This document shows positions 6,311-28,982 of a stretch of DNA of 34,807 nucleotides, piece by piece (the first letter of the stretch is position 1; every line of letters begins with the position of its first letter). This stretch comes from a virus, in the IMG/VR virus record IMGVR_UViG_3300046005_000679, positions 1-34,807 of that record; one strand, 5' to 3'. A program made the translations under genes and the position numbers. The notes under the pieces were generated by a model. The model made no database searches and had not been told where the DNA came from. It worked only from the letters and a program-made list of their open reading frames with translations.

Positions 6311-6738
6311 ATAATTACAATATAGTAGCATTACCACCAACATTAGTAGAAGTATTGTGGGAAAAGATTGTTCCACATCTTAAAAAGGCTATTGAAATAT
6401 CAAACGGTGAGCTTACTGAGGAAGGAATAAAAAGAGTCCTATTGTCAGGAAACAATATGGCACTTCTTATTTGTCGTAATGAACACATTGTTGCAGTTCA
6501 TACTTTAGAAGTAAGAGAACTTTCAGAAGGATTGCGTGTCCTCCATATTAACGCCATTGGTGGTGAGGAAATGGGTGCATGGTTTGAACAATATGTGCTT
6601 GTAATGAGAGCTATAGCAAAAGACTTAAACTGCACAGAAGTCAGAGGTTGTGCAGTTAGAAATGGTTGGTTAAGGTATCTTAAAGGATTAGGATTTGAAA
6701 AAATATCATCAACAGTTAGATTAAAACTAGGGGAATAA
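6307..6738 (+). CDS. GNAT-like acetyltransferase-fold protein
   Basis: 143 aa. Start overlaps the previous stop as ATGA. Helix-strand alternation fits a compact GNAT fold: M-A-L-L-I-C-R-N and I-V-A-V-H-T-L-E-V strands, then L-H-I-N-A-I-G-G and a helix leading to a terminal V-R-G-C-A-V-R-N-G-W-x-R-Y-L-K-G-L-G-F block. Similar GNAT-like proteins sit beside tail genes in several phages. The usual acetyl-CoA R/Q-x-x-G-x-G/A loop is not obvious, so enzymatic activity is uncertain and it may be a structural relative. Confidence 0.6.
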   Translation: MNNYNIVALPPTLVEVLWEKIVPHLKKAIEISNGELTEEGIKRVLLSGNNMALLICRNEHIVAVHTLEVRELSEGLRVLHINAIGGEEMGAWFEQYVLVMRAIAKDLNCTEVRGCAVRNGWLRYLKGLGFEKISSTVRLKLGE

Positions 6739-6739
6739 C

Positions 6740-6901
6740 ATGTCTGTAAAAATATATAAAAACTCATTTAAACTAAATGAAGCATGGGGTGATGGACGTA
6801 GAGCAGCTCAAACAGGCTTGCTTGTCGGTACTAATCCATTTGATGCAAGTGTTCCTGCTTACCAAGCATGGATAGACGGCTTCAACAACACTTTCGCATA
6901 A
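6740..6901 (+). CDS. Ribosome-modulation-factor-like small protein
   Basis: 53 aa. The residues E-A-W-G-D-G-R-R-A-A-Q-T-G, N-P-F-D and P-A-Y-Q-A-W-I-D-G-F follow the spacing of RMF-type proteins: paired aromatic/Gly residues, a central N/C-P-[YF] and a terminal W-x-x-G-[FW]. Bacterial RMF dimerises ribosomes and shuts down translation in stationary phase. Phages often carry short RMF-like proteins of unproved function. It sits one base after the GNAT-like gene and is followed by a strong AAGGAG site for the next gene. Confidence 0.55.
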   Translation: MSVKIYKNSFKLNEAWGDGRRAAQTGLLVGTNPFDASVPAYQAWIDGFNNTFA

Positions 6902-6911
6902 GGAGAAGGTC

Positions 6912-7754
6912 ATGTCAGGTGGTGGAAGCTATAATCAAAGCAACGCAAACAACCAAAGTCAGTTTCAACAAAAAATACCTAAGTGGCAATCTGACGCGCT
7001 TACTAAGATGTACAATGCAGCAGCAGGTACTTATGGTAATGTTGGAAATACCATTAATCAACAAATGGGTGGAGCGCAAGATTACATTAACCAAACAAAC
7101 CAAGCTGCAATGCCAGCATGGCAAAACCAGTTAGGTGGTGGTGTATATCAAAATATGGATAATGCCAATAGACTTTCTGAGTCATTACAGCAATCGTTAA
7201 ATGCTCCAACTAACACACAAAGCATCTATTCCCAGATGATGGGTGGACAGGGTAATACCTATGCTGATGCAATGAAAGCTGGTTATGCTGCTGATGCCAA
7301 TAGAGCAACTGCAAATATGCTTTCTAATCTTGATGCAAGAGCAGCAGCTTCTGGAATGTCTGGTGGGTCAAGACATGGAACAGCAACTTCTCAAGGCATG
7401 TATGACATTAATAGTAATCTGCAAAAGAATTTAGCAGATGTTGGTTATAATACTTTTGATAAAGACTTGCAAAACAAACTTAACATTGCACAACAGGCAG
7501 ATCAAGGAACACTTGCTAGACAGCAACTAATGTCAAACATGTTAGGTCAACAGCAAGGCGTTTCTACTGGTGCTTTAGGTATGGGACAGAATATGCAAAA
7601 TCTTGGTATGGGTTCTTTTGCTCCTGGCATGATGCCGTGGCAAAACATTAGTAACTATGCAAATGCTTTAGGATCACCAACAGTGCTTAATTCAGGTAGC
7701 AGTTCTGGGAACAGTAATGCTATGGGTATGAGTGGCGGTGGAGGTGCTAAGTAA
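6912..7754 (+). CDS. Gln/Asn/Gly-rich virion protein, ejection-protein candidate
   Basis: 280 aa with strong AAGGAG upstream. Composition is dominated by Gln, Asn, Gly, Ala and Met. It starts M-S-G-G-G-S and ends M-S-G-G-G-G-A-K, and the middle carries amphipathic helices (ANRATANMLSNLDARAAASG). Similar proteins lie first in the ejection cluster of many short-tailed phages, where they travel in the capsid and enter the cell ahead of the DNA. No enzymatic motif is visible. Stop overlaps the next start (TAATG). Confidence 0.6.
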   Translation: MSGGGSYNQSNANNQSQFQQKIPKWQSDALTKMYNAAAGTYGNVGNTINQQMGGAQDYINQTNQAAMPAWQNQLGGGVYQNMDNANRLSESLQQSLNAPTNTQSIYSQMMGGQGNTYADAMKAGYAADANRATANMLSNLDARAAASGMSGGSRHGTATSQGMYDINSNLQKNLADVGYNTFDKDLQNKLNIAQQADQGTLARQQLMSNMLGQQQGVSTGALGMGQNMQNLGMGSFAPGMMPWQNISNYANALGSPTVLNSGSSSGNSNAMGMSGGGGAK

Positions 7755-12878: not shown

Positions 12879-13018
12879 TGTTTTTCCTCCAGTTGTTTTT
12901 CCGCCCATTTAACACCATCTTCAAAACCTTCTTCCCATTCTGCTGAGTAGTATTCCTCACTAAATAATGATGAACGTATTGAGTCAATGTATTCTTCTAT
13001 TTCTTTTTCACTAATCAT
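12875..13018 (-). CDS. 47-aa acidic protein with GVKWAEK motif
   Basis: Reads MISEKEIEEYIDSIRSS... and ends F-E-D-G-V-K-W-A-E-K-Q-L-E-E-K-Q. The G-V-K-W-A-E-K motif is shared with the end of the 14370-14669 protein, so these genes appear to exchange a C-terminal module. Both ends overlap neighbours as ATGA, indicating coupled translation. No function known. Confidence 0.6.
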   Translation of the reverse strand: MISEKEIEEYIDSIRSSLFSEEYYSAEWEEGFEDGVKWAEKQLEEKQ

Positions 13019-13542
13019 TTCTTCTCCCTCTCTGCCAACATCAAGTCTGCCGTGTCATAAGCCCAAAACGGGTGTAATTCTCTTTTAGCTGTCACATATG
13101 CTTCAGAAGCTTGTTCAGCAGTGTCAAAATATCCTAAGTGTTTATGTTTTCTATTGACCATTATTTGCGCCACCCATTTTCTATGTTGCTTATGCCATGT
13201 AACACCACGAAATCCAGATGTATTATTCGTTTGTGGACTTGATTGATTTTGGTGATTCTCTTGAGAAGTAGCTAATCTTAAATTAACTATACGGTTATCC
13301 GTTTTAATCTCATTGATATGATCGATATCTTTTTCTGGAAAATTACCATGAACATATAACCATGCTAACCTATGAGCTTGATATCGTTTATTATCAAGCA
13401 TAATTTGACTATGTCCCTTTGAATCTTTACATCCAGCAACAGATCCTTTTTTTGCAACTCCCCTACTTTTAAGGTTTGTGAAAATACCAGTATCAGGGTC
13501 GTAATGTAATGATTCTTTTAATCGTGCGCTTTCAACGCTCAT
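13015..13542 (-). CDS. HNH homing-type endonuclease with AP2 DNA-binding domain
   Basis: 175 aa. The HNH part (about residues 55-105) has Y-Q-A-H-R-L-A-W-L-Y, D-I-D-H-I-N and N-L-R-L-A-T-S-Q-E-N. The C-terminal AP2-like part (about 110-160) has G-F-R-G-V-T-W-H-K-Q-H-R-K-W-V-A-Q-I and L-G-Y-F-D-T-A-E-Q-A-S-E-A-Y. Such free-standing nucleases cut unoccupied alleles and spread by repair. It overlaps its neighbours by four bases on each side, which is unusually tight for a mobile gene and suggests long residence in the operon. Confidence 0.9.
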   Translation of the reverse strand: MSVESARLKESLHYDPDTGIFTNLKSRGVAKKGSVAGCKDSKGHSQIMLDNKRYQAHRLAWLYVHGNFPEKDIDHINEIKTDNRIVNLRLATSQENHQNQSSPQTNNTSGFRGVTWHKQHRKWVAQIMVNRKHKHLGYFDTAEQASEAYVTAKRELHPFWAYDTADLMLAEREKK

Positions 13543-16964: not shown

Positions 16965-18726
16965 CGGCACTCCTGTTGTAGTCGTATATTTTAAAGAAAT
17001 CACCACTCTTTTTATATGTGATGGTATTTGGCGTTGTAAAGCCTCCATCAGTAAATGCCATAAAAGCATCGTAGTGCTTCTGCATCTTCATGGTAAACCA
17101 TACTGGAAACGATCTATACTCGGTTACAAAATCAACCCGTAAACATTCATTTCCTGCCTTGCTTAGTGTGGGTGTTGCACGCATTGCAACAACCTTATCA
17201 GTCTGTATTTGTGTTGGGTCTTTCTTTTTCATTTGGAAGTCAGCCACCAGGCGATCATTAGGGTTTATTAATTCGTTCTTACAACATGAGCAGTATCTTG
17301 CAGTTATATCATTCTCAGATTCGCATACCTCGCATAGTTTATGCGTATAACGATAAGCGCATTGACTATACTTTCCTTTTATAAGTGTATAACCTTGACA
17401 TCTCCTTCCCCAATGAGCTGGCATAGCTCCGTATTCTGTTTCTATCTCATTGCCTTCTAAATCTATAAAATAACCATGTTTATTTATACTAAATTTTTCA
17501 TCATTCTTTTTAGCAGAAAATTGATTAACGCATTTACATTCAGGACATTCAGAAATAACTGGCGACAATTCTCCTTCAGATTTAAAAACAGATTTAATCT
17601 CTGGATTAAACAAATCTCCATCTGGAAAGTGCATATCAATGTTTTGAGCGTAATCCAAAATCAAAGCATCTTTTTTACCTTCATGTATTCTTACTGATCT
17701 ACCTATAATTTGCCCAAGAAGCGCACTAGACTCTGTTTTTCTTAGTAAAGCTATAACATCTACCGAGGTACAATCAAAGCCAGTTGTCAACGTATCAACA
17801 GACACTAAATATTTAATTTTTTGTGCTTTAAAGTCTAAAATTATTTGTTCACGTTCTTTTTTATTTGTCTTGCCTGTAATCATTGCAGATATTACTGGTG
17901 GCAATGATGCAAGTATCTCTTCACAATGCTTTATTGTTGCACCAAAAAACATAATGCTTTTTCTGTTTACAGATTGAGTTACAACATCAGAAACAATTAA
18001 CGATGTTTTTCTGCCGTGACCAACAAAAGCAGCATCAATTGTTTTATCATCAAATTTACCAAAGCTATTTAGCTTTAATCCTGAAGTATCATAAGATGCT
18101 GAATTAATCTCCCCAATAACAGGTTTTGTAATATAACCATGCTCCAATAAATATCTTCCAGATATTTGACAAACAAGTTTATAAAAATAAGGGTTTTTAG
18201 CAATCGCTTCTGGTATTGGTTTATCGTTTAAATCAAGTTTATAAATATATCCAAGTCCTAACTTAAAAGGTGTGCTGGTTAATCCAATAACCCTTAAATT
18301 AGGATTATGTTTTTTTATAGAATCAATAATATTAAATATGGTTGGTGTTAATGATTCGTGAGCCTCATCAAGTATGATTGCACCAAATTGATTACCAAAC
18401 CGATGTATTTTATTAACTACTGTTTTTGGAGTCCCATACACTACATTATGTTTTATACATTTAGTTCCAAGTGATGCGCTAAATATTGAACATTCATTAC
18501 CAGTGGCTAAGTATTTTTCTATGTTTTGCTGGCAAAGCTCACGAGAAGGTTGCAAACATAAAACTTTCTTACCACTAAACTCATGTATTTTTCTAGCAAG
18601 TTCAGCAACTATTAATGATTTTCCTGCTGCCGTAAATGCTTCAATCAAACAAGGTTCAGTTGATATTTTTATATGCTCAAAAGCATCATCTACGGCTTTA
18701 TTTTGGTAATCTCTTAGCTTAAGCAT
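16948..18726 (-). CDS. SF2 DEAH-box helicase with C-terminal zinc fingers
   Basis: 592 aa. Motifs in order: Walker A F-T-A-A-G-K-S (31-37), DEAH (120-123), T-S-T-P-F (150-154), T-T-G-F-D (314-318) and motif VI Q-I-I-G-R-S-V-R (339-346). A region with C-P-E-C (394-397) and a later C-E-V-C ... C-S-C-C group suggests one or two zinc-binding ribbons. It resembles the RadD/UvsW-like phage helicases that unwind forks or branched DNA. Coupled to the VRR-NUC gene after it and to the HNH gene before it (8-bp overlap). Confidence 0.9.
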   Translation of the reverse strand: MLKLRDYQNKAVDDAFEHIKISTEPCLIEAFTAAGKSLIVAELARKIHEFSGKKVLCLQPSRELCQQNIEKYLATGNECSIFSASLGTKCIKHNVVYGTPKTVVNKIHRFGNQFGAIILDEAHESLTPTIFNIIDSIKKHNPNLRVIGLTSTPFKLGLGYIYKLDLNDKPIPEAIAKNPYFYKLVCQISGRYLLEHGYITKPVIGEINSASYDTSGLKLNSFGKFDDKTIDAAFVGHGRKTSLIVSDVVTQSVNRKSIMFFGATIKHCEEILASLPPVISAMITGKTNKKEREQIILDFKAQKIKYLVSVDTLTTGFDCTSVDVIALLRKTESSALLGQIIGRSVRIHEGKKDALILDYAQNIDMHFPDGDLFNPEIKSVFKSEGELSPVISECPECKCVNQFSAKKNDEKFSINKHGYFIDLEGNEIETEYGAMPAHWGRRCQGYTLIKGKYSQCAYRYTHKLCEVCESENDITARYCSCCKNELINPNDRLVADFQMKKKDPTQIQTDKVVAMRATPTLSKAGNECLRVDFVTEYRSFPVWFTMKMQKHYDAFMAFTDGGFTTPNTITYKKSGDFFKIYDYNRSADEVPQ

Positions 18727-19300
18727 TTTGATAAGTTTCTTTTCTTATAATGCGACTAATAGTTGCTTGAGAAACCCCAAATAAATTTGCAAGTTTTGAT
18801 CCAGATAAATTAATTGATCTTATTTGTTTTGCTTGTTCATTTGTTAATTTAGAACTATTTGCATATTCTCCAGTTCCTTTATGCGACCTGCCTTTATTAA
18901 CCATATCTGCCATATTATCTTTATGCGTTCCAATAAATAAATGATCTGGATTTACGCATAATGGCGTATCACATTTATGACAGACATACATTCCTGATTT
19001 AATTTCCCCATGTATCATCATGTAAGAAAACCTGTGCGCTCCAATGTCTTTTTTGCCTTTACTTATTCTTGGATATAAAACACCTTTGCTATTTGCTCTT
19101 GTGCTTCCTTCCCACATCCAACAACCATTTTCTTTAACAATATATTTTTTATGGAATCTTTCTGTAATATTTCCTGTATCTTTTATTCTATTTCCATAGT
19201 TATTAACATCACCATTTTTTAAAAGCCTTCTATAGTGCATATCACAATATTTCTTACATACAGCTTTTCTTTCACAGTTATTAAAATTACATTTATTCAT
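18719..19300 (-). CDS. HNH homing-type endonuclease with C-terminal HTH
   Basis: 193 aa. The ATG at 19300 is preferred because GGAG sits seven bases upstream; further in-frame starts exist up to 19351. The N-terminal zinc-type piece has C-N-F-N-N-C and C-K-K-Y-C. The HNH core includes C-W-M-W-E-G, G-A-H-R-F-S-Y and C-H-K-C-D-T-P-L-C-V-N-P-D-H-L. The final HTH (A-N-L-F-G-V-S-Q-A-T-I-S-R-I) gives site recognition. Its own -10-like TATAAT lies upstream within an inverted repeat. Inserted between exonuclease and helicase genes. Confidence 0.9.
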   Translation of the reverse strand: MNKCNFNNCERKAVCKKYCDMHYRRLLKNGDVNNYGNRIKDTGNITERFHKKYIVKENGCWMWEGSTRANSKGVLYPRISKGKKDIGAHRFSYMMIHGEIKSGMYVCHKCDTPLCVNPDHLFIGTHKDNMADMVNKGRSHKGTGEYANSSKLTNEQAKQIRSINLSGSKLANLFGVSQATISRIIRKETYQNA

Positions 19301-19310
19301 ATTATTCTCC

Positions 19311-19352
19311 ATTGTGTCGTTTAGTCCATTATATAGGAATAACTGACACAAT
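19311..19352. repeat. Inverted repeat around a -10-like box upstream of HNH gene
   Basis: Perfect 8-bp arms ATTGTGTC (19311-19318) and GACACAAT (19345-19352) separated by 26 bases. The interval contains a leftward TATAAT (19328-19333) with no good -35. It may be an operator-controlled promoter for the HNH gene or an insertion boundary. Confidence 0.55.
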
Positions 19353-22031: not shown

Positions 22032-22202
22032 ATGTTCACACCAGAAGAAATAATTAATAAACTGCAACCTTTAAACTTAACTTATTTATCAAAGAATACT
22101 GGCATTAAATATAATGTATTGTGGAAGTTTGCCAATAATAAATTGAAGATCATTCCCTATGATTTAATTAAAAGACTGAGTGACTATTTCAATGTTGCCT
22201 GA
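22032..22202 (+). CDS. Cro-like HTH regulator
   Basis: 56 aa. The first helix segment T-P-E-E-I-I-N-K-L precedes an HTH at about residues 17-37 (TYLSKNTGIKYNVLWKFANN), then a basic helix. It is the first rightward gene after the divergent promoters, the classical place for a Cro or repressor. It overlaps the primase-helicase start by 11 bases. It likely binds the GTTGCA arms, though this is not shown by the sequence. Confidence 0.75.
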   Translation: MFTPEEIINKLQPLNLTYLSKNTGIKYNVLWKFANNKLKIIPYDLIKRLSDYFNVA

Positions 22203-24066
22203 GTTATGTGATGCAATAAGGTCAGTTGGTTATGAACCACCATCTAATATAGCTATTGGTAAAGTTACAAGATTTTCAACCAACGGCAGGCGTAATGATC
22301 GCTCTGGTTGGGTGCATGTTTTTGATGATGCAAAAGGAGCTGTGTTTGGTTGTTGGCGCAGTGGAGAGCAACACCAATGGCATGAGAAACGTGATTATGT
22401 TCCAGACATACATGAGCAGGAGGCTATGCGTCAACAGTTTGAAGAAGCTAAACGAAAAGCAATAGCTGAACGTGATGCGTCTTATTATGTAGCAGCAAAG
22501 GAAGCGCAGGTTTTATTTGATAATGCTGTTCCAGTTGTAAGTCATGATTATCTTACTAACAAAGGAATACGTCCAAATATGGCTCGTATGTTTGGCGGAA
22601 AGTTAATCATACCTGTATATGGTGCAGATGGAGAAATTCAGTCTGTACAATCAATATTTAGTGACGGTGCTAAAAGGTTTCATTCTGGTGGAAAGATGCT
22701 TGGAGGTCATTGCTGGATAGGAGATCCTTCTGAGTCTGAAACTTTATTGATAGCAGAAGGATTTGCAACAGCAGATAGTTTAAACCAAGCTACAAAACTT
22801 GCTGTCTGTATAGCATTTAACGCTGGAAATCTTAAGCCAGTAACACAAATGATTGCAAGCCAGTACATTGGTAAGAAAATAGTTATTTGTGCAGACAATG
22901 ACAGTTCTGGTATTGGCATGAGCAAAGCAAAAGAATGTGGAGTTGATATTGTATTGCCAACTATTGATGGTGACTTCAACGATATGATGTCAGAACTAGG
23001 CATTGATGCAGTTAGGGAAATCATTTTTGGTAAAGTAAAACCAGAGGAGTTATTTGTTACCATCGAAGATATGATGGCAAGTATTAGTAAGCCTGACTGG
23101 TTAATAAAGGGAATACTTGAGCGTGGCTCAATGAATCTTCTTTTTGGTGAGTCAGGTGCAGGTAAAAGTCTTTTTGCTATGGATTGGGCGTTTTGTGCTG
23201 CAACAGGTAGAAACTGGCATGGTCATAAGATAAAAGAAGAATTAAAAACTTTAATTATTATGGGTGAAGGTTTGCGTGGTGCTTCAATGCGTTTTAAAGC
23301 ATTATCACAAAAATATGGAGAACCGCCAAAGAATATTAGATTAAGCAGACGATCCATTAATCTATTAGATAGTAAAGAAGCTGATGAAATATTAAAAATA
23401 GTAGCAGAGTTAGATTTTAAACCTGATATTATTATTATTGATACGTTGCACAGGAATATGGTTGGAGATGAAAACAGCTCTGAAGATATGGCATTGTATT
23501 TTAAGTCTATAGAATTACTTGCCAGACGTTTAGATGCTGCGATTGTAACAGTTCACCATAGTGGACATGGCGATAAAGGAAGGTCAAGAGGTTCATCATC
23601 TATAAAAGCAGCTATGGACGCAGAGTTTTGTGTCACTAAGAATGGAGATGCAATTACTTTTAGTTGCACCAAGTCAAAAGACTTTGGATTTGGCACTGAT
23701 ATGAGTTTTATTATTAAAGAAGTAGAGTTAGAAGGTGAGGTATTTTATGATGAAGATGATGATAAGCAAGTCACCAGTGTTTATTTAGAGTATCAAGGTG
23801 TAGCTACTAAAGAAAAAGTATTGTCAAAAAAGTTACAAAAAGCTATGGACAGTTTAGTTTTAGCATCAGAAACTATTGGAAAAGAGCGTCCAGAACTGTC
23901 CATTTTAGGTTCTGGACACGTAATTGTAAGTCTGTCCGAATGGAAGCCATTTTTTAATGAACATAAAGAGCTTGCTGAAAGAAGGCAAAACTTTTCAGAG
24001 TGCAGAAAAGAGTTGTTAAAACAAGAACTTATAGCTGTTGATGGAGATTATAGTTGGATATTATAA
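22192..24066 (+). CDS. Primase-helicase (TOPRIM plus RecA-fold AAA domain)
   Basis: 624 aa from ATG at 22192 (an in-frame GTG lies four codons upstream). The N-terminal half has a TOPRIM-like E in L-L-I-A-E-G-F (about 183-189) and I-C-A-D-N-D (about 232-237). The C-terminal RepA/AAA_25-type helicase has Walker A G-E-S-G-A-G-K-S (about 318-325), Walker B I-I-I-I-D-T (about 413-418) and V-T-V-H-H-S-G (about 452). It primes and unwinds phage DNA. The gene ends right at the TGTCC/GGACA cluster that follows. Confidence 0.85.
   Translation: MLPELCDAIRSVGYEPPSNIAIGKVTRFSTNGRRNDRSGWVHVFDDAKGAVFGCWRSGEQHQWHEKRDYVPDIHEQEAMRQQFEEAKRKAIAERDASYYVAAKEAQVLFDNAVPVVSHDYLTNKGIRPNMARMFGGKLIIPVYGADGEIQSVQSIFSDGAKRFHSGGKMLGGHCWIGDPSESETLLIAEGFATADSLNQATKLAVCIAFNAGNLKPVTQMIASQYIGKKIVICADNDSSGIGMSKAKECGVDIVLPTIDGDFNDMMSELGIDAVREIIFGKVKPEELFVTIEDMMASISKPDWLIKGILERGSMNLLFGESGAGKSLFAMDWAFCAATGRNWHGHKIKEELKTLIIMGEGLRGASMRFKALSQKYGEPPKNIRLSRRSINLLDSKEADEILKIVAELDFKPDIIIIDTLHRNMVGDENSSEDMALYFKSIELLARRLDAAIVTVHHSGHGDKGRSRGSSSIKAAMDAEFCVTKNGDAITFSCTKSKDFGFGTDMSFIIKEVELEGEVFYDEDDDKQVTSVYLEYQGVATKEKVLSKKLQKAMDSLVLASETIGKERPELSILGSGHVIVSLSEWKPFFNEHKELAERRQNFSECRKELLKQELIAVDGDYSWIL
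23888..23917. repeat. Inverted repeat inside the primase gene
   Basis: Perfect 9-bp arms GTCCAGAAC (23888-23896) and GTTCTGGAC (23909-23917) with a 12-base loop that contains TGTCC. It belongs to the same family of sites as the cluster after the gene. Confidence 0.8.
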
Positions 24067-24068
24067 TC

Positions 24069-24181
24069 TGTCCAAGTGTCCAAATTGGACATTATTGGAC
24101 ATGTTGTACAGGATTAATAAAAGTGTCCGTCCTGTCCGAGTGTCCTTTAGGACACGGACAGGTGGACAGAAATCTCGGACA
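24069..24181. other. Candidate replication origin: TGTCC/GGACA palindrome cluster
   Basis: Eleven copies of TGTCC or GGACA in 113 bp: TGTCC at 24069, 24077, 24124, 24133 and 24141; GGACA at 24087, 24097, 24150, 24156, 24164 and 24177. TGTCCAA-A-TTGGACA (24077-24091) is a near-perfect palindrome. A long hairpin follows at 24131-24162. An AT-rich stretch (24102-24123) separates the two halves. It is noncoding and directly follows the primase-helicase gene. An operator array for gene control is the alternative. Confidence 0.6.
24131..24162. repeat. Hairpin with 2-base bulge, TTTA loop
   Basis: CCTGTCC-GA-GTGTCC, loop TTTA, GGACAC-GGACAGG: 13 base pairs with a 2-nt bulge on one side. It has no T-run on either strand, so it is not a terminator. 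It could extrude as a cruciform or serve as a single-strand initiation structure. Confidence 0.8.
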
Positions 24182-24190
24182 AGGAGTTGG

Positions 24191-24328
24191 ATGGAAGAAG
24201 TTTTAGAGCTTATAAAAGAGGTTGAAGAAGTTTTTGGAACAGTACAAGCAAAAGCAATTAAGATTGATGACAAGGTAGTTTTACATGAAGGTAGATTTCA
24301 ACAAGAACGTGAAGGATTGGAGTTATGA
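24191..24328 (+). CDS. 45-aa acidic/basic helical protein
   Basis: ATG at 24191 with AAGGAG six bases upstream. A longer upstream frame would read through the palindrome cluster and is rejected. MEEVLELIKEVEEVFGTV... is a strong amphipathic helix, followed by a charged second half. Stop overlaps the next start as ATGA. Function unknown. Confidence 0.6.
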   Translation: MEEVLELIKEVEEVFGTVQAKAIKIDDKVVLHEGRFQQEREGLEL

Positions 24329-24479: not shown

Positions 24480-24609
24480 TGTTGAATACTTTTATTATAT
24501 GGCAGATAAGATGAACAAAATGCCAACTGAAGCGCAATTAAAGGCGTTTTTAGAAGCTCTTAATACTATGAGCAGGATAAAAGCTTTTGTACTTGTGATG
24601 AGGTTGTAA
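24472..24609 (+). CDS. 45-aa helical protein
   Basis: ATG at 24472 lies five bases after AGGAG; another in-frame ATG is at 24469. MDDVEYFYYMADKMNKM... is helical and Met-rich with a hydrophobic C-terminus (AFVLVMRL). Stop overlaps the next ATG (TAATG). Unknown function. Confidence 0.55.
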   Translation: MDDVEYFYYMADKMNKMPTEAQLKAFLEALNTMSRIKAFVLVMRL

Positions 24610-24836
24610 TGAAGCACAATCATTATTTTAAAGATGTACGGCATATTGACGGCATTGACGTTTATCGGGTGTTGGAATTGTTTAATGTAACAGACCCTTG
24701 TCTGCAACATGCGGTAAAAAAGTTGTTGTGTGCAGGGAAAAGAGGTGCAAAGGATGAAGAGCAAGATGTTCAAGAGGCAATGGATACGTTGGAGCGTTAT
24801 CAGGATATGAAGGTGGAGGAAGATCTGCATGATTAA
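24609..24836 (+). CDS. Conserved phage protein (HYFKDV family)
   Basis: 75 aa: H-N-H-Y-F-K-D-V, V-Y-R-V-L-E-L-F-N-V-T-D-P-C-L-Q-H-A-V-K-K-L-L and a final acidic helix. This is a familiar early-region phage protein, usually near replication genes; function not established. Overlaps the next gene by eight bases. Confidence 0.75.
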   Translation: MKHNHYFKDVRHIDGIDVYRVLELFNVTDPCLQHAVKKLLCAGKRGAKDEEQDVQEAMDTLERYQDMKVEEDLHD

Positions 24837-24957
24837 ACGGACAAAGATTTGCAAACATAAGTACCAGGCAACTTATGTTTCATGGCGCAAGAAAGTTTGT
24901 GTTGATTGCAATAAAGAGTTTCCATTGTATGATTTAAAGATTGAACACCAAAGGTAA
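24829..24957 (+). CDS. 42-aa putative zinc-binding protein
   Basis: Residues C-K-H (8-10) and C-V-D-C (24-27) give three Cys and one or two His spaced as in a small zinc ribbon, with many Lys/Arg. Probably a nucleic-acid-binding microprotein. Overlaps the previous gene's end. Confidence 0.55.
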   Translation: MIKRTKICKHKYQATYVSWRKKVCVDCNKEFPLYDLKIEHQR

Positions 24958-26825: not shown

Positions 26826-28982
26826 ATGGCAAAAATGACTGATTCAGAAATATTGGCAATTATCCAAAATGAAATGGCTAATGCTGATATTACGACAACT
26901 TCATCTCCTTCACTGCAAGAACCGCTTAGATATTATCTTGGGCTTCCATTAGGCAATGAACAGGAAGGGCGTAGCTCATTGGTATCAACAGATGTTGCTG
27001 ATGCTATTGAGTGGATAATGCCTCAGATTATGAAATCATTTACTCAAAATAATGAGGTGGTGGTTTTTGATCCTGTCAATGAAGGAGATGAATTACAGGC
27101 GCAAATTGAATCAGAATATGTATATGATGTATTGATGAAGCAAAATGATGGGTTTACTTTAATCCATCAATTTGTGAAAGATGCACTTATGCAACGCAAT
27201 GGAATGTTAAAAGTTTATTATGAAGATGATGAAAAGATAACCACATACAACTATTCAGGATTAACAGAAGATCAGTTAGCTGTTGCTCTGTTGGATGAAG
27301 ATAGTGAGATATTGGAATTAACTGAAGATGAAAGTCAATCAGAAAATCCATTAGAACAAGAGCCTACAACATACAGTGCAAAAATTAAGGTCACTGAGAA
27401 ATGTGGAAAGATTTGTATTGATCCTGTTGCTCCTGAAGAATTTAGAGTCAACACGCAACATAACAATATCAGTTTAGCTAATGCTAGATTTACATGTCAC
27501 ATTGTAAACAAGACACTTTCTGACCTAAGAGAAGAAGGTTATAAAGATGAAGACATTGAAGACTTAGTTAGCTCTGATTTGCTTAGGTCTGCATATAGAT
27601 TTAACTATCAGAATGAACCAACACAAGTTCCATCAGTATTAAGTTCAGATGATGCTAACAGATTAGTAGAGGTTACTGAGTGTTATTTAAAACTTGATGT
27701 AAATGGTGATGGAATAGCTGAATTAATGAAAGTAACAGTTGCAGGAGTTGAAACTCCAACTGTTATTTTAAGCATGGAAGAAATAGATAGTTTACCTTGG
27801 ATTAGCACCACAGCGATATTAATGTCACACAAGTTCCAAGGATTATCAATCTATGACCGCCTGAAGTCTATCCAAGACAATAAGACCGCAATTATCCGTA
27901 ATATTATGGATAACATGTACTTGCAAAACAATCAGCGCAATGTTGTTCTTGAAGGTCAAGTAAATCTTGATGACCTATTAGTATCAAGACCTGGTGGATT
28001 AATCCGAGTAAAAAGAACTGATGCAATAATGCCGTTGCAAACACCTGCTATTGGTGATGCAGCATTTAGTATGATGCAGTATCTTGATGAAGTAAAAGCA
28101 GGAAGAACTGGCGTATCAGCAGACGGAACAGCAAGCCCAGAAAATATTGGCAATGCAGTTGGCTCACAAGGTGTTGAGCGAATGATGAACGCCAAAGAAG
28201 AATTAGTTGGTCTAATTATTCGTGTTATCTGTGAAACTGGTATCAAACCTCTTTGTAATAAGATTCGTGATCTTGTTACCATGCACGTTGATACTATAGA
28301 AGATTTTAAGTTTCGTGGTCAATGGGTCAAAGTTAATCCATCTGAGTGGGAAGAAAGAACAAGAAGTTCAGTGAGAGTTGGAACTGGAACTGGTGATACT
28401 AGAGCAAAGCTTGCAGCCATACAACAGGTTCAGTTACTGCAAGAAAAGATTATGAGTATGCCAAATCAAACGCTTACTAATCCTAACAAGATATATGCCA
28501 CTATAGATGACTTCTGTAAGTTCTCAGGACTAGACTCGGCTAATAAATATTTTGTTGATCCAGCAAGTCCAGAAGGTCAGCAAGCAGCACAACAATCACA
28601 GCAAACACAACAGCAACAACAGCAAGAATCGCAACAAGCACAACTTGAACAGATGCGTATGCAAGCAGAGCTGGCTAAATCAGCAACTACTACAGCAGAA
28701 GCGCAGATGCAGAATGTAGCTATCAAAGGTCAGGTTGAGTTAGGTAAACATCAACGTGAAATGGAAAAACAATCATTTCAGATTCAGTTGGAGCAGTTAA
28801 AGGCTGAATTAGACAAAGCTAAGGCTGTTCAAATAGCTGAAAAAGATTTAGAAGATATAAAGTTTAAGTATGACCAGTTGTATGCTCAAACAGCACTTAA
28901 ATTAACAGAGTTGGAATCATCATCAAATACATCTCAAGATGTTAATTATGAGCAGAACAGGAACAATATGTATGACGGTTGA
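26826..28982 (+). CDS. Portal protein (P22-portal-like)
   Basis: 718 aa. The N-terminal block R-S-S-L-V-S-T-D-V-A-D-A-I-E-W-I-M-P, the V-K-D-A-L-M-Q-R-N-G-M-L-K-V-Y and R-N-I-M-D-N-M-Y-L-Q-N-N-Q-R blocks are typical of P22-type portals. The last 150 residues are Gln-rich and coiled-coil (barrel-like). It forms the dodecameric DNA channel at the capsid vertex. Start ATG is coupled to the 21-aa gene; a second in-frame ATG lies three codons later. Confidence 0.85.
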   Translation: MAKMTDSEILAIIQNEMANADITTTSSPSLQEPLRYYLGLPLGNEQEGRSSLVSTDVADAIEWIMPQIMKSFTQNNEVVVFDPVNEGDELQAQIESEYVYDVLMKQNDGFTLIHQFVKDALMQRNGMLKVYYEDDEKITTYNYSGLTEDQLAVALLDEDSEILELTEDESQSENPLEQEPTTYSAKIKVTEKCGKICIDPVAPEEFRVNTQHNNISLANARFTCHIVNKTLSDLREEGYKDEDIEDLVSSDLLRSAYRFNYQNEPTQVPSVLSSDDANRLVEVTECYLKLDVNGDGIAELMKVTVAGVETPTVILSMEEIDSLPWISTTAILMSHKFQGLSIYDRLKSIQDNKTAIIRNIMDNMYLQNNQRNVVLEGQVNLDDLLVSRPGGLIRVKRTDAIMPLQTPAIGDAAFSMMQYLDEVKAGRTGVSADGTASPENIGNAVGSQGVERMMNAKEELVGLIIRVICETGIKPLCNKIRDLVTMHVDTIEDFKFRGQWVKVNPSEWEERTRSSVRVGTGTGDTRAKLAAIQQVQLLQEKIMSMPNQTLTNPNKIYATIDDFCKFSGLDSANKYFVDPASPEGQQAAQQSQQTQQQQQQESQQAQLEQMRMQAELAKSATTTAEAQMQNVAIKGQVELGKHQREMEKQSFQIQLEQLKAELDKAKAVQIAEKDLEDIKFKYDQLYAQTALKLTELESSSNTSQDVNYEQNRNNMYDG

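Follow-up and report, generated by a model that had tools for sequence, protein, structure and literature searches.

A lineage-specific inverted-repeat array behind a phage TOPRIM-RepA-type primase-helicase gene: a probable replication origin exchanged with a winged-helix domain

Introduction

In SaPIs and PICIs the origin of replication lies directly 3' of the rep gene and the C-terminal domain of Rep binds its iterons (PMC6092414, PMC7581432). In the rep-ori units of SaPIbov1 and EcCICFT073, the origin follows the initiator-helicase gene and holds short iterons in two sets that flank an AT-rich stretch. The phage locus presented here is built alike, but the AT-rich stretch is not common to all its relatives. 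It differs in its RepA/AAA_25-type helicase with a fused TOPRIM domain and in its occurrence on tailed-phage contigs, whereas the SaPI Reps are of the DUF927 or D5/Primase_Cterm types with AEP primases (PMC7581432). A conserved hairpin, noted in this phage family, may be a further difference from SaPI origins.

Protein alpha of P4 combines a TOPRIM primase, a helicase and a winged-helix origin-binding domain in one polypeptide, the same set as here (PMC4234260). Directly behind alpha lies crr with ten type 1 repeats, spaced 9 bp apart. The alpha helicase belongs to SF3, a different family from RepA/AAA_25. P4 has a distant ori besides crr, while our 34.8-kb window (the whole stretch of viral DNA analysed, a contig that may be incomplete) has one cluster only; crr moreover consists of two 120-bp direct repeats, in which no hairpin with a TWWA loop was seen by eye. 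A sequence-only reading of the window had not recognised its array as a known type of origin; it does resemble crr and the SaPI/PICI origins (PMC6092414, PMC7581432).

Three other systems share some traits with the locus. The oriV of the IncQ replicon RSF1010 (RepA, RepB', RepC) has iterons bound by RepC and short stem-loops, ssiA and ssiB, that are primase start sites (PMC4234260). Its RepA helicase is homologous to ours (1g8y, E 4e-4), but RSF1010 uses three proteins with separate RepC and RepB', where the phage enzyme has TOPRIM and winged-helix domains fused to the helicase. In the PLEs of Vibrio cholerae, the initiator RepA has a DNA-binding domain that covaries with the origin; the two move as one module, and swaps have been tested (PMC8263062). 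That initiator is of the RepA_N type, without a predicted helicase or primase (PMC7145576); its binding domain is N-terminal and far fewer types are known. Finally, Sulfolobus pRN1 encodes a primase-helicase with a C-terminal winged helix, followed directly 3' of the gene by an essential stem-loop whose structure is kept while its sequence varies (PMC4234260). Contrary to the phage locus, pRN1 has an archaeo-eukaryotic primase, an SF3 helicase, a stem-loop of about 100 nt and no iterons.

On comparative sequence evidence, we propose that the phage array is an origin of replication, recognised by the winged helix in the phage's own primase-helicase and possibly equipped with a priming hairpin, a reading to which we assign a probability of roughly 85%.

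Results

The gene in front of the array and its last domain are placed as follows.

22180-24066, plus strand: primase-helicase gene, 628 aa; TOPRIM at residues 189-274, AAA_25/RepA-type helicase at 292-464, winged helix from about 547
23818-24063, plus strand: exchangeable C-terminal winged helix, proposed iteron-binding domain (from an AlphaFold2 model, VIA-align and a sharp loss of homology between types)

The Pfam models matched by the protein are limited to AAA_25 (6e-33), Toprim (Toprim_3, 8e-8) and general ATPase; neither DUF927 nor D5/Primase_Cterm is among them. A family profile built from 12 relatives has a single match in the PDB, the RSF1010 RepA helicase 1g8y, over 58 residues. AlphaFold gives the whole protein a low confidence (pLDDT 50), except for parts of the C-terminal half. 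The last ~80 residues, modelled with AlphaFold2 from 21 relatives, reach pLDDT 75 and follow the order helix-strand-helix-helix-strand-strand. Their best VIA-align Z scores are with the winged helices of Cdc6 (9.1) and ORC1 (8.9) and with CAP (8.1). Despite these modest values, the models have this part of the protein as a winged helix; as Foldseek with the domain model returned nothing at E <= 0.001, and sequence comparison linked it credibly to no winged helix of known structure, the origin-binding domain of P4 included, the predicted fold rests on model topology and VIA-align. Among the loci read there was no sign of a free-standing copy of the domain, for instance in an origin-directed nuclease, and queries of types A, C and M (see below for types) led to this primase family. 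The window carries its own terminase large subunit and portal, which sets it apart from satellite islands.

Behind the gene, the array consists of these elements.

24069-24101, no strand: iteron set 1, with TGTCC at 24069 and 24077 and GGACA at 24087 and 24097, as inverted pairs
24102-24123, no strand: AT-rich spacer separating the iteron sets, a possible melting region judging by its sequence
24124-24181, no strand: iteron set 2, seven copies at 24124, 24133, 24141, 24150, 24156, 24164 and 24177
24131-24162, plus strand: hairpin of 13 pairs with a TTTA loop, its 5' arm bulged by 2 nt; it keeps its position among relatives while the stem changes by compensation
23847-23937, no strand: four in-gene copies of TGTCC/GGACA in the winged-helix coding region

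Our count bears out the 11 copies of TGTCC/GGACA reported from the sequence alone within 113 bp (24069-24181); the first lies 2 nt past the stop codon. No other 5-mer forms so dense a cluster per ~113-bp stretch anywhere in the window, and in 150 first-order Markov simulations of the same size no 5-mer with at least three letters exceeded 8, against 11 in the real sequence. TGTCC as a whole is at background (49 observed versus 45 expected across the 34.8 kb), so the enrichment is local. The palindrome TGTCCAA-A-TTGGACA at 24077-24091, with its 7-bp arms, and the bulged TTTA hairpin are both as first described. Folded as single-stranded DNA, positions 24064-24182 reach -28 kcal/mol (z -6.9), a value equalled by none of 200 shuffles.

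GC skew, suggested earlier as a check around 24.1 kb, is uninformative and lends no support to an origin: its sign flips near 22 kb, where transcription diverges, and not at 24.1 kb, following gene direction. A known RNA was rejected, as Rfam gave only two matches, both far under the gathering score.

Another proposed check concerned the DNA behind homologous TOPRIM/AAA_25 genes. From IMG/VR and genomes we obtained 81 usable loci, the window among them, at 36-100% identity, and in 81 of 81 an array of short inverted repeats starts at the stop codon. Their common layout has the short inverted iterons in two sets, nearly always with a hairpin some 80 nt past the stop, and extends as far as Methylotuvimicrobium, whose homologue is 36% identical. 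What varies is the repeat itself, which by lineage reads TGTCC, ATCATCCATCC, ATATACCTACC, TATACATACATAC, TCATACATACA, CCCACCC, ATACCATT, ACCTCAC, GCGTAC, TTCCCG, GTTACG or others. Cultured phages with diverged homologues have similar arrays, with GGTTCA in Alteromonas PB15, GGTACA in Idiomarinaceae 1N2-2 and GGGGACA in Salicola CGphi29; the same design recurs with CTGGAA in Roseobacter CRP-406, CTACAAA in Roseobacter CRP-811 and GCGTGACA in Rhizobium 16-3, and the uncultured ct3Oc712 has GGGACA behind its homologous gene. Behind the more distant homologues of Mycobacterium phages Wanda and Coffee, Nocardia KYD2, Caulobacter GB2A and ct76p945, no such array was seen.

The exactly spaced TGTCC pattern of iteron set 1 was found in 15 viral contigs, and in 14 it lies at this primase family. 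The fifteenth, a high-GC contig, has a GGGGACA-rich array away from the primase, which we judged unrelated. Repeat clusters were noted on two contigs: L149, a high-GC contig of 64 kb with no such primase seen, has TGTCCCC/GGGGACA packed into two dense clusters some 160 bp from each other (6720-6960 in reverse-complement coordinates), and L091 has 11 copies of ATTGGC/AGCCAA at 1905-2060, away from its primase array, perhaps as a tandem repeat.

Clustering of the C-terminal domains yields 15 groups, here called types, each with its own repeat. In 223 pairs of loci whose helicase cores are at least 95% identical but whose C-termini are less than 50% identical, the similarity of array 5-mers is at most 0.24; in 57 pairs with cores below 80% and C-termini at least 65% identical, it averages 0.74, with a minimum of 0.54. 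One locus (L034) is close to L040 and L042 over its N-terminal 540 residues, yet has a type-A C-terminus and the TGTCC array. On the helicase-core tree, at least 29 changes of type are required, against 14 on the C-terminal tree, the minimum for 15 types. The iterons track only the C-terminal ~80 residues, and neither the rest of the enzyme nor the Cro-like HTH protein encoded upstream. The correspondence of domain and motif is not one to one: AT-rich motifs such as TATACATA recur in similar form in a few C-terminal clusters that have little identity to one another, with array similarity up to 0.76.

The motif of a locus also extends into its gene. In several types, the own-type motif is enriched in the 3' coding region of the primase-helicase gene. 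In the window, the four in-gene copies and the 9-bp inverted repeat reported earlier are accompanied by a 10-bp inverted repeat (23845-23854/23894-23903) missing from that description; three of the four copies are kept in register across all type-A relatives. The spacer is 89% AT at +50 to +59 in the window and type A, and is not AT-rich in every type, type N being an example.

DNA identity between near-identical phages of different type (window-L019, L034-L040, L034-L042 and L040-L042) falls from ~90% to 36-50% from about -250 to +120 relative to the stop codon and is back at 96-100% at about +150. These edges delimit the exchanged block.

23815-24190, plus strand: inferred exchange cassette, the winged-helix coding region plus the iteron array, from the drop in DNA identity between types

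We infer that domain and array are exchanged together among related phages, as a cassette of ~400 bp. Linked neighbours can travel together without functional coupling, a point that we count against the origin reading; the downstream gene, as near to the array as the winged helix is, does not track type, which argues against simple hitch-hiking of neighbouring DNA. The frame directly behind the array (24191-24328, plus strand, 45 aa) is common to phages of different origin types. Further on, a 75-aa frame (24609-24836, plus strand) resembles larger phage protein families, phrog_2452 among others, in their C-terminal third alone, as if truncated.

The comparative evidence thus strongly favours the link between origin and primase-helicase made by the sequence-only reading. 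The steric argument of that reading, that copies 8-9 bp apart are too close for a large duplex-binding protein to occupy at once, is weak given that the alpha-binding repeats of P4 are likewise 9 bp apart.

Covariation reveals a specificity of binding, not its consequence. The winged helix might sit on the array and autoregulate expression of the primase, or partition or package the genome, the origin being elsewhere; P4, after all, has both ori and crr, with only crr behind alpha. We consider this unlikely, since the array is behind the gene and not in front of it, the 34.8-kb window lacks a second TGTCC cluster, and the array in the same position in SaPIs/PICIs is a tested origin (PMC6092414).

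It is less probable still that the array is an operator for transcription control, read by the Cro-like HTH protein or another regulator. The small HTH gene (22032-22202, plus strand) overlaps the primase start and is kept in most relatives, independent of origin type. Operators can be inverted repeats, and the minus strand has a promoter-like match (11/12) that touches the first TGTCC. This match, however, needs bases that vary between types, and such matches are no more frequent in the region than in shuffled sequence. Three different arrays, furthermore, go with a 100% identical HTH protein: those of the window (type A), of L019-L021 and L038 (type B) and of L022 (type C). Within type A the protein goes down to ~45% identity with TGTCC unchanged. 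It is therefore not what the array follows, and we rejected it as the array binder.

The hairpin stands about 80 nt past the stop in nearly every type. Its loop is AT-rich, most often TTTA, TTAA or TATA, and the 5' arm as a rule has a short bulge or asymmetry. The inner stem varies under the same winged helix: GTGTCC, ACACTC and ACCCCC in type A, CACTCCC and CACTCTC in type N, ACTGTTA and CACCTCT in type O, with complementary arms in every case. In a set of 36 distinct hairpins, 95% of the inner positions are paired, and sliding one arm brings this down to 50% or less; the 95% is an upper figure and the contrast is overstated, because the apex finder maximises pairing and in a few hairpins chose another palindrome. 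The fixed position and the stem changes within types are independent of this choice. Compensatory changes at a fixed site fit selection on pairing and not on duplex sequence, as would be expected of a cruciform or of a single-stranded hairpin. Folding as a single strand, proposed earlier from the spacing of the copies, therefore gains support from another side, that of the stem changes.

The least credible explanation makes this stem-loop immediately behind a gene an intrinsic terminator for the primase transcript, with the TGTCC copies as by-products of its stem. It was rejected: no T run follows the hairpin and a scan for terminators detects none at this place, same-type iterons are also present beyond the stem and within the coding region, and the inner stem can do without an iteron (CCCCC-TTAA-GGGGG in L008).

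Discussion

We now propose how replication could start at this locus. The winged helix would bind TGTCC/GGACA half-sites in duplex DNA and thereby gather several copies of the enzyme. The RepA-type helicase part would then melt the AT-rich spacer and load. On the exposed strand the hairpin could form, marking the site of the first primer for the TOPRIM part or for another primase; we propose ssiA and ssiB of RSF1010 as the model for this candidate priming hairpin. Binding by the winged helix, opening and loading by the helicase and priming nearby are suggested by analogy with SaPIs/PICIs, P4 and RSF1010. With specificity housed in one block of ~400 bp, a phage would switch its origin type by recombining the winged-helix domain together with its iterons.

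More tentatively, and at somewhat less than even odds, the locus may be a one-protein, RSF1010-like replicon of tailed phages, in which the winged helix holds the iterons, the primase starts on a dedicated DNA hairpin and specificity resides in an often-exchanged cassette of ~400 bp. Perhaps a rare origin type is advantageous against rival phages, satellites or origin-directed nucleases, and exchange is frequent for this reason.

The exchange of initiator-origin modules as a unit was already known from PLEs (PMC8263062), and so were stem-loops behind primase-helicase genes from pRN plasmids (PMC4234260). As far as the open-licence literature shows, the TOPRIM-RepA fusion with a C-terminal winged helix in tailed phages is new, as are a hairpin conserved within an iteron array and specificity exchange in such numbers and at such a rate.

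Some 15 small DNA-binding domains, each naturally paired with its iterons and set on helicases that hardly vary, would make a lock-and-key collection for the start of replication, enough for working out a recognition code and for building replicons that do not interfere. They also make it testable why phages switch origin type yet keep the other parts of the replicase, be it to avoid competing replicons or origin-directed nucleases, which are known for PLEs (PMC8263062).

Some minor observations concern other parts of the window. One of the weak Rfam matches, to RsmY at 24750-24880 on the plus strand (23.6 bits against a gathering score of 57), is probably due to chance. A cluster of CAGCAA in the 3' part of the portal gene (28561-28680) is probably a repetitive coding stretch. 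On the minus strand, two HNH endonuclease genes (13015-13542 and 18719-19351, one of them HNH-AP2) lie among the early genes and may encode homing endonucleases.
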